From assembly GCF_015624485.1 (NCBI RefSeq), contig NZ_CP061378.1, positions 6,845,501-6,909,500 on the forward strand: a DNA stretch of 64,000 bases, given 5' to 3'. This stretch comes from Bradyrhizobium genosp. L (GTDB taxonomy: Bacteria; Pseudomonadota; Alphaproteobacteria; Rhizobiales; Xanthobacteraceae). Positions 6,488 to 52,197 of the stretch are shown in pieces (within the stretch, counting starts at the first letter, position 1; every line of letters starts with the position of its first letter). The notes under the pieces are model-generated. The model was given only the letters and a program-made list of their open reading frames with translations, made no database searches and was not told the origin of the DNA. Made by a program: the position numbers and the translations under genes.

Positions 6488-8263
6488 TCAGTGCGTCGGC
6501 AACGGCGGATGCGGGATCGCCGTCAGCAGCTCCCTTGTATAGGCATCCTGCGGATTGCCCAAGACCTGTTGGGACGTCCCCTGCTCCACGATGCGCCCTG
6601 AGCGCATCACGATGACGCGGTCGCATAGCAGGCGCACCACGTTGAGATCGTGCGACACGAACAGGTAGCTCATGCCCATCGACTGCTTGAGGTCCTGCAG
6701 CAGGTTGAGCACCACGGCCTGCACCGAGACGTCGAGGGCTGCGGTCGGCTCGTCGAGGATGACGAGTTTTGGATGCAGCGCGATCGCGCGCGCAATGCCG
6801 ACGCGAGCCTTCTGGCCACCGGAGAGCTGGTGCGGGAAGCGATCCAGGAGATTGACCGGCAGGCCGACCAGGCGCGCGAGCTCCTCGCAACGGGCGCGGA
6901 GAGCGTCGCGGCCCCTGATGTCGCCGAGCTGCAGGATCGGGTCGATGATCGCGCGCGCCGCAGTGAAGCGCGGATTGAGGCTGTCGGTCGGATCCTGGAA
7001 TACCATCTGGATCCGGCTGCGCCGCGGCAGCCGCGCGAAGGATTGCGGCATGATGCCGCCGATGTCCTCGCCATCGAACAGGATACGGCCGGAGGTCTGG
7101 TCCAAGAGCCGCATCACCATCATCGACGTGGTCGACTTGCCGCAGCCGGATTCGCCGACCAGGCCGACGCTCTCGCCATGGCCGACATGGAAGCTGATGC
7201 CGTCGACCGCGCGGAAGACTTCCTCCTCGACCGGCGGCTTGCGGCCGAACAGTTTTGCGAGCACCGAGCTTGCGCCCTGGCGGGGATATTCCTTGACGAG
7301 CTTTTCGACGGAGAGGAGCGGTTGCCTGGTCTCGTCACTCCCGGGCTTGCCCCGGGGGTCCATCGACGAAGAAGCATCTTGCGAAGCCGGATGGATGGCC
7401 GGGTCAAGCCCGGGCATGACGGAGTTGGGCTTCACTTCCTCCTCCGGCAATAGATCGCGCAGCGACACGCCGAGCCGCGGCGTCGCGCGCATCAGCTTCT
7501 TGGTGTAGGCGTGCTGGGGCGCGGCGAAGATGTCGGCCGATTTCGCGGTCTCGACCACGCGGCCCTTCTCCATCACCACGACACGGTCGCAATAGGCCGC
7601 GGCGAGGCCGAGATCGTGGGTGATCAGGATGGTCGACATCGCGCGACGCTTGGTCAGCTCGACGATCAAATCCATCACCGCCTTCTGCGTCGTGACGTCG
7701 AGACCGGTGGTCGGCTCGTCCGCGATCAGGAGCTGCGGATTGCAGGCCAGCGCCAGCGCGATCACGACGCGTTGGCACATGCCGCCGGACAGTTCGAACG
7801 GATAGGCGTGATAACGCTCGCGCGGGCGGGCGATCTTGACCTGCTCCAGCGCCTCGATCGCCTTCTCGCCGCGGTCGTCAACCTGCGCCTGCTGCACGTG
7901 CTGGCGCAGCACGTCCTCGATCTGGTCGCCGACCTTGCGGATCGGATTGAGCGCGGCGCGCGGGTTCTGGAAGATCATCGAGACCTCGCGGCCGCGCAGG
8001 TCGCGCATCTGGCTCTCGGTGGCCGCCTTGACGTCGATGCCGGAGAACATCACCGAGCCCTCGGCGATCCTGCCGGCACGGTCGAGGATGCGCATCACCG
8101 CATACGACGTCACCGACTTGCCGGAGCCGGACTCGCCGACGATGCCGACGGTCTCGCCCTTGCCGACGGCGATGTTGACGTGCTGCACGGCCTTCACGAT
8201 GCCGCGGCGGGTAGAGAATTCGACCGTGAGGTCCTGGACGTCGAGCAGCGGCTGAGGGCTCAT
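6488..8263 (-). CDS. Fused two-domain ABC transporter ATPase (DppD-DppF type)
   Basis: 591-aa protein containing both ATPases of a peptide/nickel-type ABC importer. Domain 1: Walker A GESGSGKS (43-50), signature LSGGM (about 158), Walker B LLIADEP (about 178). Domain 2: Walker A GESGCGKS (370-377), signature LSGGQKAR, Walker B LVILDEP. Each domain is followed by the oligopeptide-type C-terminal extension (QHAYTKKL, QDAYTREL). It energises the permeases encoded just upstream. Start ATG 8263 has AGGAGG 6 nt upstream. Oddity: the linker at residues 282-310 is a translated copy of an intergenic palindromic repeat (SVMPGLDPAIHPASQ...DPRGKPGSDE). Confidence 0.92.
   Translation of the reverse strand: MSPQPLLDVQDLTVEFSTRRGIVKAVQHVNIAVGKGETVGIVGESGSGKSVTSYAVMRILDRAGRIAEGSVMFSGIDVKAATESQMRDLRGREVSMIFQNPRAALNPIRKVGDQIEDVLRQHVQQAQVDDRGEKAIEALEQVKIARPRERYHAYPFELSGGMCQRVVIALALACNPQLLIADEPTTGLDVTTQKAVMDLIVELTKRRAMSTILITHDLGLAAAYCDRVVVMEKGRVVETAKSADIFAAPQHAYTKKLMRATPRLGVSLRDLLPEEEVKPNSVMPGLDPAIHPASQDASSSMDPRGKPGSDETRQPLLSVEKLVKEYPRQGASSVLAKLFGRKPPVEEEVFRAVDGISFHVGHGESVGLVGESGCGKSTTSMMVMRLLDQTSGRILFDGEDIGGIMPQSFARLPRRSRIQMVFQDPTDSLNPRFTAARAIIDPILQLGDIRGRDALRARCEELARLVGLPVNLLDRFPHQLSGGQKARVGIARAIALHPKLVILDEPTAALDVSVQAVVLNLLQDLKQSMGMSYLFVSHDLNVVRLLCDRVIVMRSGRIVEQGTSQQVLGNPQDAYTRELLTAIPHPPLPTH
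7334..7420. repeat. Palindromic repeat inside a CDS, GTCATGCCCGGGCTTGAC family
   Basis: GTCACTCCCGGGCTTGCCCC at the left and GGCCGGGTCAAGCCCGGGCA then TGAC at the right form the same inverted repeat as the intergenic copies at 24861 and 26385. Here it is in frame within the linker of the fused ABC ATPase gene and adds about 29 codons. Confidence 0.88.
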
Positions 8264-13403: not shown

Positions 13404-13524
13404 GTCGTCCTGGCGAAAGCCAGGACCCATTACCACCGAATTTAGTTGTAAGCGGGATCGTGGCCCCGGTCTCGTGCGACAATGAGCGGCCGGGGTAATG
13501 GGTCCTGGCTTTCGCCAGGACGAC
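13404..13524. repeat. Palindromic repeat, GTCGTCCCGGCGAA family
   Basis: Left arm GTCGTCCTGGCGAAAGCCAG with GACCCATTACCAC, right arm GTAATGGGTCCTGGC with TTTCGCCAGGACGAC, separated by about 58 bp. It lies between the kinase-fold gene and the UgpB-like gene. Same family as 20599, 27984 and 33893. Confidence 0.9.
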
Positions 13525-20598: not shown

Positions 20599-20715
20599 GT
20601 CGTCCCGGCGAAAGCCGGGACCCATAACCACGACGGGTGGTTGTTGGAAGATCGTCGCGCCGCTCGCCCATTACAACCGCCGCGGCGTATGGGTCCCGGC
20701 CTTCGCCGGGACGAC
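20599..20715. repeat. Palindromic repeat, GTCGTCCCGGCGAA family
   Basis: Arms GTCGTCCCGGCGAAAGCCGG with GACCCATAACCAC, and TATGGGTCCCGGCC with TTCGCCGGGACGAC, separated by about 50 bp. It begins one base after the response-regulator stop and may serve as a transcript end. Confidence 0.9.
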
Positions 20716-24860: not shown

Positions 24861-24960
24861 GTCATGCGCGGGCTTGACCCGCGTATCCATCGTCTGCGTG
24901 AGCAGACAGACAAAGCCTTTCGCGAAGAGGATGGATTGCCGGGTCAAGCCCGGCAATGAC
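24861..24960. repeat. Palindromic repeat, GTCATGCCCGGGCTTGAC family
   Basis: Left arm GTCATGCGCGGGCTTGACCC, right arm GGGTCAAGCCCGGCAATGAC, separated by a spacer of about 60 bp. It lies between convergent LysE and GST genes, where it could terminate both transcripts. Confidence 0.88.
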
Positions 24961-26384: not shown

Positions 26385-26472
26385 GTCATGCCCGGGCTTG
26401 ACCCGGGCATCCACGTATCTCTCACCGCACTGAATCGACGTCGTGGATGGCCGGGTCAAGCCCGGCCATGAC
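26385..26472. repeat. Palindromic repeat, GTCATGCCCGGGCTTGAC family
   Basis: Near-perfect inverted repeat: GTCATGCCCGGGCTTGACCC and GGGTCAAGCCCGGCCATGAC, separated by about 48 bp. Immediately downstream of pyrE; read in frame it yields the same GRVKPGHD-type peptide seen in repeat-derived protein segments. Confidence 0.9.
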
Positions 26473-26586
26473 GAGATTGTATCGACCGCGCCATCCGCGT
26501 TTCTTCCGTCGCCCCAACCACCGATCAATCCCTCGTTTACCATCCCGCATTATGGTTACTCCGCCGGGGCATCTCGTCGCCGCGGC

Positions 26587-27426: not shown

Positions 27427-27858
27427 TCAGCGGCTGACGATCACGCCGATCACGTTCGGCGCGGCCAGATATTTGTCCTCGATCGCGGCGCGCGCGGCGG
27501 CCCGGTTCTCCGGCGTGAGCAGGCCGCGCTTCTCGGCCAGGATCATCCAGCAATAGCCCCACCAGTCGGTCAGCATGCCCTGATCGTCGACCAGATCGTA
27601 GCCCGCTTCGGCGGCGAAGATCCGCGCATGGGCCTCGTCGAGCGCATCCAGCCAGGCGTGGTCCGCGACCGAGAACAGGTCGTCGCTGAAATCATCGGTG
27701 GTGTAGCCCCAGATCGACATGCAGACCGCGTTGAACTCGCGGTCGATCTGGTCGTCGTCAACCCGCTGCCGCCGCGAGGCCTGATGCAGCCGCGACAGCG
27801 AGCGCGCGAAATCGGCAATCCGGGTGAGCGCGAATTGATCAAAGGCGATGGTGGACAT
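27427..27858 (-). CDS. Conserved-looking hypothetical protein (acidic, 143 aa)
   Basis: Not recognised. A 143-aa acidic soluble protein with no signal peptide. It is rich in aromatic residues around SIWGYTTDDFSDDLFSVADH and LTDWWGYCWMILAEKRGLL. Composition and third-position G/C match the neighbouring real genes. The start ATG 27858 has CGAGGG a few bases upstream; an in-frame ATG at 27885 is less favoured. It converges on the DUF2865 gene with adjacent stop codons, leaving no space for a terminator. Confidence 0.65.
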   Translation of the reverse strand: MSTIAFDQFALTRIADFARSLSRLHQASRRQRVDDDQIDREFNAVCMSIWGYTTDDFSDDLFSVADHAWLDALDEAHARIFAAEAGYDLVDDQGMLTDWWGYCWMILAEKRGLLTPENRAAARAAIEDKYLAAPNVIGVIVSR

Positions 27859-27983
27859 GTAGCCCTCGCGGGAACGGGAGACCATAGATGTTGTGTCGGC
27901 AGGCGCGCCGAATCACAATGATATATCAAAGACTTGCTAAAGTGTTCTTAATTCGTTCTGGTTGGTTTATGGTTTGTGAGAAT

Positions 27984-28017
27984 GTCGTCCCGGCGAAGGC
28001 CGGGACCCATAACCACC
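27984..28017. repeat. Left arm of GTCGTCCCGGCGAA palindrome, upstream of GIY-YIG gene
   Basis: GTCGTCCCGGCGAAGGCCGG followed by GACCCATAACCACC. It pairs with 28350-28382: 31 of 33 compared positions agree after reverse complementing. Elsewhere in the window the arms of this family are only 30-70 bp apart; here a complete gene lies between them. Confidence 0.92.
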
Positions 28018-28050
28018 GCCGTTCACCGTCTGCACCGTCGGTTGCCAGTG

Positions 28051-28344
28051 ATGACCACGCCCGTTGCTTACTACGTCTACATTCTCGCAAGCCGTAGACA
28101 CGGAACGCTCTACATCGGTGTCTGTAGTGACCTTGGCAATCGACTAACGTTGCATCGCTCAGGACGTGGCTCGCAGTTCGTCAAGAAGTACGGCGTCACG
28201 CGACTTGTTTATGTAGAGATCTACGCCTCGCCGCTGGAAGCGATTGCGCGCGAAAAGGCTCTGAAGGAATGGCGGCGTGATTGGAAAATTCGCTTGATCG
28301 AACAAGACAATCCGGAGTGGGGCGACCTGTCCCATCTTATCTGA
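28051..28344 (+). CDS. GIY-YIG domain nuclease enclosed by REP arms
   Basis: 97 aa, single GIY-YIG domain: YYVYILASRRHGTLYIGV gives the VYIL / LYIGV signature, followed by the catalytic arginine region LGNRLTLHRSG, and the conserved glutamate in EAIAREKALKEWRRDWKI. Members of this small class are annotated as putative endonucleases related to UvrC's N-domain. The gene begins 33 bp after the left repeat arm and ends 5 bp before the right arm. Its base composition and codon use are less G/C-rich than the neighbours, which suggests a separate origin. No second domain that would give DNA specificity is present. Confidence 0.9.
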   Translation: MTTPVAYYVYILASRRHGTLYIGVCSDLGNRLTLHRSGRGSQFVKKYGVTRLVYVEIYASPLEAIAREKALKEWRRDWKIRLIEQDNPEWGDLSHLI

Positions 28345-28349
28345 CGGCT

Positions 28350-28382
28350 GTGGTTATGGGCCCCGGCCTTCGCCGGGGCGAC
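28350..28382. repeat. Right arm of GTCGTCCCGGCGAA palindrome, downstream of GIY-YIG gene
   Basis: GTGGTTATGGGCCCCGGCCT followed by TCGCCGGGGCGAC, the reverse complement of the left arm at 27984 with two differences, starting 5 bp after the GIY-YIG stop codon. Confidence 0.92.
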
Positions 28383-28419
28383 AAATTTGGCGGCCCTAAC
28401 AGGCCCCCAAAAGCAATTT

Positions 28420-33892: not shown

Positions 33893-34014
33893 GTCGTCCC
33901 GGCGCAGGCCGGGACCCATAACCACCGATGATCATTGTTACGCGTTGGTGGAAGGACGAGTCCGGCCCACAACATCCGCTGCGGAGTATGGGTCCCGGCC
34001 TTCGCCGGGACGAC
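33893..34014. repeat. Palindromic repeat, GTCGTCCCGGCGAA family
   Basis: Left arm GTCGTCCCGGCGCAGGCCGG with GACCCATAACCACC, right arm TATGGGTCCCGGCC with TTCGCCGGGACGAC, spacer about 60 bp. Lies between arginase and pckA, which converge. Confidence 0.9.
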
Positions 34015-52114: not shown

Positions 52115-52197
52115 GTAGGATGGGTGGAGCGAAGCGATACCCATCGCCTGGTGCCGCTCGTGAGATGATGGGTTTCGCTACGCTCTACCCATCCTAC
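52115..52197. repeat. Palindromic repeat, GTAGGATGGGTGGAGC variant
   Basis: GTAGGATGGGTGGAGCGAAG paired with GCTACGCTCTACCCATCCTA and C; inner ACCCATCGCC arms. A divergent version of the GTAGGGTGGGCAAAGC element with ATGGGT in place of GTGGGC. Confidence 0.85.

Follow-up and report, generated by a model that had tools for sequence, protein, structure and literature searches.

The window analyzed here, a stretch of 64,000 nucleotides from Bradyrhizobium genosp. L, carries in an intergenic region a small gene for a GIY-YIG nuclease, enclosed by two inverted copies of a REP palindrome. Pairs of the same kind of palindrome that contain no gene occur elsewhere in the window. The features are as follows.

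27983..28018, + strand: left REP arm, with tag TGTC, stem GTCCCGGC, loop GAAG, stem GCCGGGAC and tail CCA, then TAACCACCG
28051..28344, + strand: GIY-YIG nuclease gene, 97 aa (PF01541 match, invariant residues, AlphaFold2 model)
28350..28383, - strand: right REP arm, differing from the left arm by one compensated stem base pair
13404..13524, no strand: gene-less REP pair of the GTCCTGGC stem type
20599..20715, no strand: gene-less REP pair of the GTCCCGGC stem type, directly 3' of a response-regulator gene (fold z -9.2)
33893..34014, no strand: gene-less REP pair of the GTCCCGGC stem type

The ATG of the nuclease gene lies at 28051 and its stop codon ends at 28344; the open reading frame called mechanically begins earlier, at 27976. 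A left arm of 33 bases (27984-28016) is followed by 34 bases, the gene, 5 bases and the right arm (28350-28382), and the inverted-repeat score of the locus is 65 with flanks of 200 bp. The arms agree at 31 of 33 positions, and the two mismatches are the partners of a single stem base pair (GTCCCGGC/GCCGGGAC on the left, GCCCCGGC/GCCGGGGC on the right). Because these two changes pair with each other, both arms remain perfect hairpins. When folded alone, the left arm has a dG of -10.5 kcal/mol (z -3.6), and the right arm has a z of -3.3. The GC content of the gene is 0.537, compared with 0.657 for the window, a value matched or undercut in 0.4% of equal-length windows. Together with the PF01541 match described below, these results confirm the first-pass annotation of this DNA, which had recorded a complete 97-aa GIY-YIG gene inside inverted arms and lower in G/C than its surroundings.

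The 14-base arm sequences (GTCGTCCCGGCGAA at 27984-27997, + strand; GTCGCCCCGGCGAA at 28369-28382, - strand) have eight matches in the window when at most one mismatch is allowed, whereas 100 shuffled versions gave 0.14 matches on average. The eight form four inverted pairs, one of which holds the nuclease gene. The other three, at 13404, 20599 and 33893, have only short spacers between their arms, as had also been noted at first.

In domain searches, the 97-aa protein matched PF01541 (E = 2.1e-14; 54 bits, cut-off 22.6) and no other family; the PF01797 (HUH/Y1) domain by which RAYTs are recognized was not found in it. An alignment of the window protein with 39 of the 80 GTDB loci introduced below has seven residues that are invariant in all 40 sequences, namely Y10, Y21, G23, R31, H35, E68 and N87. 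The residues that we take to be catalytic in GIY-YIG domains (Tyr, Tyr, Arg, Glu and Asn) are all present in the window protein. Its AlphaFold2 model has a mean pLDDT of 95, and in a Foldseek search of the PDB the only match with E < 0.001 was the UPF0213 protein 1zg2, with Slx1 chains following from E 0.02. Among 13 orthologues at the window locus, the median dN/dS is 0.10 (range 0.01-0.22; 75 pairs with finite dS, which is often > 1), and the gene at this locus is under purifying selection.

GIY-YIG homing endonucleases of the I-TevI type reside in an intron, an intein or a conserved gene, and they cut the empty allele. The window gene shares its catalytic domain superfamily with these enzymes, but it is intergenic, and only a GIY-YIG domain was found in its product. 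Homing inside a host gene was rejected on account of the intergenic site, and the homing-type nuclease of the initial description is not indicated in the strict sense.

To place the palindrome, we compared it with the CGTC REPs. In the available text of Di Nocera, De Gregorio and Rocco 2013 (PMC3733652), these elements have a CGTC or TGTC tag, a stem of 8-9 bp, a loop of 4-5 nt and a CCA tail, are present in high copy number and chiefly outside genes, and occur mostly as inverted dimers, Bradyrhizobium families being included. They are known in every order of Alphaproteobacteria examined and in five phyla, and the superfamily takes in Neisseria dRS3 and Rickettsia RPE-4 and RPE-6 (PMC3733652, available text). 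The window-locus REP conforms to this description in its TGTC tag, 8-bp stem, 4-nt loop and CCA tail, its high copy number, and its occurrence mostly in inverted pairs. However, according to the same available text, CGTC REPs apparently lack a dedicated transposase, and no flanked transposase gene was found, whereas the REPs at the window locus flank a nuclease gene. The term GIY-YIG is absent from that text.

The abundance of this REP was measured in an 864-kb sample of the host genome (40 sampled 20-kb stretches and the window), which contains 42 matches, compared with 0 in a reversed-sequence control; the whole genome contains 165 matches to a 30-mer of the element with at most two mismatches. 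In the 864 kb, 17 of 18 adjacent inward pairs are spaced 63-69 bp apart, and the eighteenth, at 345 bp, is the one with the nuclease gene. The first-pass annotation had suggested that, if the gene-bearing unit is mobile, the gene-less copies would be its non-autonomous derivatives. Their spacers resemble the inner flanks of the gene only weakly (mean z between 1.4 and 3.3, depending on the group and the side), and very high values (L032; the 3' side of L272) stem from sequence resembling ordinary REP pairs that adjoin the gene. We thus do not claim gene-less pairs as internal-deletion copies.

The pairing of gene and REP was then evaluated by scoring inverted repeats in the flanks of related genes. 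A threshold of 30 was fixed after first controls (148 placements, maximum 28), and when a 291-bp pseudo-gene with flanks of 250 bp was placed at 2078 positions in the 864-kb sample, 21 positions exceeded it (1.0%, best 37). Nine GIY-YIG genes are among the matches listed for the host genome. The seven paralogues closest to the query (L001-L007) all lie between inverted palindromes, with scores of 45-77, and these palindromes differ in their stems (GTCCCGGC, GTCCCTGC, two ATTCCGGG types, GTGTCCCGG, ATCGCCCGG and ATGGCCGGG). The remaining two genes score 18 (L008, which has no arms) and 30 (L261).

Scores above 30 were obtained for 73 of 76 Bradyrhizobium loci, which comprise 36 of the first 37 loci (L008 being set apart) and 40 hand-chosen places. 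Among named GTDB loci, 71 of 80 exceeded the threshold and nine scored 30 or less, compared with 3 of 302 control placements above it; these 80 are the best of 576 confirmed loci, and many are from Bradyrhizobium. A phylum sample, in which 53 of 200 genomes matched a Neisseria protein used as the query, gave 36 of 49 loci above 30 and 13 at 30 or less; 20 of these 49 strong loci, as well as all 20 weak loci considered later, are chosen places from the match list. The locus sets overlap (among others, L213 = L003, L342 = L261, L350 = L265, L354 = L258, L358 = L228 and L369 = L219) and were not pooled, and L224 and L355 were left out because their flanks are too short. The first-pass annotation had proposed that its idea would fail if most homologues lacked arms or if arms surrounded unrelated genes at the same rate. 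Neither proved to be the case: most homologues in all three samples have arms, the background rate is 1%, and in the 864-kb sample no gene other than that for the GIY-YIG nuclease was found between close arms of the window-locus REP.

The pairing extends to plasmids. Of 33 plasmid records, 13 were taken, and 11 of their loci scored above 30: those of Azospirillum, Novosphingobium, Shinella, Rhizobium CIAT894, Sphingobium, Aeromonas, S. meliloti, Sinorhizobium C101 and N. gonorrhoeae, and more weakly those of Spirosoma and Planktothrix. No flanking repeat above 30 was found at the plasmid loci of Photobacterium and Rhizobium tumorigenes. The N. gonorrhoeae GIY-YIG gene has dRS3-like repeats on its flanks (score 45), but we do not count it as independent support, because a control placed within that locus scored 50. 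Standalone UPF0213 or Slx1-like proteins (E. coli YhbQ, 1zg2, 1ywl) resemble the window protein in having a single GIY-YIG domain and a common fold. In contrast to the window gene, the gene for the distant relative in E. coli, yhbQ, has no flanking arms (score 16).

A hairpin with a GTC tag is recognizable in the left arm of 56 of the 71 positive GTDB loci, compared with 41 of 864 random 74-mers from the window. It is followed by a CCA tail in 51 of the 56, and 14 distinct stems are represented. The pairing between GIY-YIG genes and REPs is therefore general and is not confined to the window locus. That chance produces it, through intergenic insertion hot spots that gather both REPs and small genes, is very hard to credit. 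Genomes do contain many REPs, and the REP pair at 20599 sits at such a hot spot, but the background is 1%, whereas the three samples, each drawn in a different way, have arms at about 73 to 96% of their loci.

Similarity between proteins was compared with similarity between their REPs for 72 of the 76 Bradyrhizobium loci (three loci scoring 30 or less and one with an internal stop were excluded). The correlation is r = 0.77, whereas the maximum is 0.14 among 2000 permutations and 0.48 among 5000 permutations that exchange only paralogues within a genome. For pairs without similar outer flanks, r is 0.66 (permutation maximum 0.11). When the loci are reduced to 14 positional groups, r is 0.78, and none of 10000 permutations was as high (best 0.69). 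Mean REP similarity is only 0.24 among paralogues of the same genome, compared with 0.81 to the nearest protein of another genome. REP type thus tracks the protein rather than the genome.

REP copy number also goes with the gene. Among 60 Bradyrhizobium genomes, the median count of REP variant 1 is 24.5 in the 18 genomes with the gene and 0 in the 42 without it (p = 5e-8), and that of REP variant 2 is 43.5 compared with 3 (p = 3e-5), statistics that ignore kinship. A backwards control gave 0 in all 60 genomes. Gene presence was assigned by hand among the matches listed and refers to the window locus only. The gene was judged intact in 14 of the 18 genomes, including G017, whose gene (L014) lacks arms and lies at a distance of 1.3 kb. 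There are exceptions in both directions: G050 has an intact gene and just two copies of the counted REP variant, which are its own arms, and G043, G014, G007 and G005 have 26 to 88 REP copies and no gene at the window locus. The loose R6 pattern was noise and was disregarded.

These two correlations bear on other possible relationships between gene and arms. The arms might serve the nuclease gene in cis only, as its terminators, its operators or hairpins in its mRNA, and would then have been recruited from REPs that happened to be frequent. REP hairpins directly 5' and 3' of the gene would suit such a role, but it predicts neither that REP type should match protein clade beyond what shared position accounts for nor the correlation with copy number, and we consider it improbable.

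The main rival to our preferred reading is that the enzyme prunes or resolves REP hairpins. According to this explanation, a structure-specific nuclease similar to Slx1 trims or resolves its cognate REP hairpins and cruciforms, the arms regulate or retain the gene, and the REPs spread by other means. The presence of Slx1 among the fold neighbors, the strong folding of REP pairs as single strands (z -9.2), and the conserved and stationary nature of the gene are all consistent with it. However, gene presence is accompanied by higher and not lower REP copy number, which speaks against pruning without being conclusive, and the one-to-one match between genes and REP types fits a spreading partner more naturally. 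We therefore view pruning as unlikely, although it deserves more weight than the other alternatives.

The outer flanks of the Bradyrhizobium genes sort into ten positional groups of 3-13 loci and four single loci, and the groups are kept between species. Because outer flanks form such conserved groups, the genes are long-standing occupants of fixed sites. The first-pass annotation had described a small mobile or formerly mobile unit. Fixed orthologous sites and a dN/dS of about 0.1 argue against present-day movement of the gene with its arms. Among 30 loci compared for the window locus, the gene is present in 11 (truncated in one) and absent in 19. A search for clean empty sites or target duplications found none that could be read among the relatives compared, which have diverged too far at the junctions.

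The same data bear on the idea of an ordinary IS-like or MITE-like unit that has the arms as its terminal inverted repeats, carries the nuclease gene as a passenger and is moved by another enzyme. A gene inside inverted repeats and gene-less copies with the same arms are what this idea would lead one to see. However, gene-bearing units stay at fixed positions across species, GIY-YIG is the only gene type between close arms in 864 kb, and related genes carry different arms, so we give this idea little credence.

In the intergenic region next to the gene that matches window positions 27430-27855, where relatives have the whole unit, L088, one of the 19 loci without the nuclease gene, has a solo hybrid palindrome, CGTCGTCCCGGCGAAGGCCGGGACGACC. 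Judged from its sequence, this palindrome looks like a deletion scar between the GCCGGGAC repeats of the arms. L085, L095 and L105 have no GIY-YIG unit in that region and share another sequence, which by eye resembles a small ORF. At the spot of the 20599 REP pair, 30 loci (its own and 29 relatives; L311-L340) have, by eye, differing REP families or none that was recognized, the families in relatives including GTAG and CATCCTGAGG types. With these other families in place, no insertion junction was readable there. This spot 3' of the response-regulator gene is a hot spot for REP pairs.

GIY-YIG proteins that match the query weakly, such as L261, often lie between variants of a different palindrome, CATCCTGAG..TCGAAGGATG (L251-L270, L342-L354). 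This weak group was meant as a negative control, but 12 of its 20 loci scored above 30. Eleven of the 12 are from the host's class and one (L255, score 32) is from another class of the phylum; the eight others are six loci from other classes, L261 (30) and L269 (19, from the same order). In a second set, which shares members with the first, 8 of 13 loci of this second subfamily exceeded 30, as did 11 of 16 additional loci that are better assigned to the first subfamily, compared with 0 of 112 controls.

RAYTs are HUH/Y1 (PF01797) tyrosine transposases, and their REPs are GTAG-tagged. A RAYT gene is present in a single copy per type and is inherited vertically. RAYT/REP/REPIN systems were reportedly described by Nunvar in 2010 and by Bertels and Rainey in 2011. 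The sole RAYT-like gene found in the host genome, which at 22.2 bits falls short of the cut-off (23), lies between inverted CCGTAGGATGGGTAGAGCG.. palindromes of the GTAG type, with a score of 63. Our flank method thus recovers the known RAYT/GTAG pairing. A RAYT as mobilizer of the CGTC REPs was considered and rejected, because this marginal gene is the only one and carries GTAG palindromes.

The GIY-YIG systems resemble RAYT/REP systems in that the gene lies between inverted cognate REPs, in that inverted REP pairs are dispersed elsewhere, and in that there is one enzyme per REP type, the two co-varying. Within Bradyrhizobium, the gene is likewise single-copy per type and vertically inherited, as indicated by the positional groups and dN/dS. 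The two kinds of system differ in that the enzyme has a GIY-YIG and not an HUH/Y1 fold, and the REPs are tagged with CGTC and not GTAG. By this analogy, we propose, with a probability of roughly 0.6, that the gene encodes the trans-acting partner of the flanking CGTC-type REP, in a role like that of a RAYT and with an unrelated fold. A GIY-YIG-based REP system analogous to RAYT/REP had been suggested in the first-pass annotation, and it gains support from the flanked loci in three samples (73/76, 71/80 and 36/49) and from the co-variation.

As the trans-acting partner, the protein would recognize the hairpin form of its cognate REP, whether on DNA that is single-stranded during replication or in a cruciform. 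Recognition might involve the ends that stay constant, GTC as tag and CCA as tail, together with the family-specific stem, and nicking would occur near the base of the hairpin, by the tag or tail. GIY-YIG enzymes are thought to hydrolyze DNA without a covalent intermediate. Host replication or repair, and not strand transfer of a transposase kind, would in that case presumably complete insertion at a new site. REP pairs would spread or turn over in this way, while the gene passes vertically.

Given that the pairing recurs across many bacteria and that each nuclease has a repeat of its own, GIY-YIG nucleases may be the missing enzymes that spread or maintain REPs. A broader proposal is more tentative, and we hold it at somewhat less than even odds: small GIY-YIG nucleases may be the enzymes, missing so far, that disperse the CGTC REP superfamily and, through the second subfamily, the CATCCTGAG..TCGAAGGATG palindromes. 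They would form a second, independently evolved REP-spreading machinery of bacteria that uses hairpin nicking and host repair in place of the strand transfer performed by transposases. If so, two unrelated nuclease folds (HUH and GIY-YIG) have converged, each being encoded between the inverted palindromes that it apparently serves. CGTC REPs, which had no enzyme as of 2013, gain as a candidate a tiny nuclease with its own REP, often with several such pairs per genome. The question of their enzyme thereby comes within reach of assays for binding and cleavage, in which the non-cognate REPs are ready-made controls.

The layout resembles that of RAYT systems; the enzyme and the REP superfamily differ from theirs. 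The available text of Dunin-Horkawicz 2006 (PMC1564403) mentions no REP link for GIY-YIG proteins, and in the available text of a 2025 REP survey (PMC12306157), the words nuclease, transposase and RAYT never occur. No published link between GIY-YIG and REPs was found among the matches listed for the literature searched, a scope that left preprints and most subscription papers outside. The few papers listed that contain both GIY-YIG and a word starting with "rayt" concern fungal genomes or mitogenomes.

Additional observations concern individual loci. Other CGTC-type REPs in the window have ATGGCCGGG/ATGCCCGGG stems (pairs at 24862-24960 and 26386-26475, and a single copy at 7392), and this type is the one found around the paralogue L007. 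An inverted pair at 52115-52190 fits the GTAGGATGGG..CCCATC pattern, which is the GTAG type found around the RAYT-like gene (L341). On a plasmid of Azospirillum lipoferum 4B (L189), the GIY-YIG gene and its REPs lie within the suf operon, in the interval between sufB and sufC. On a Planktothrix agardhii plasmid (L191), the GIY-YIG gene has a restriction-modification gene of type IIL on one side and the DISARM gene drmA on the other.
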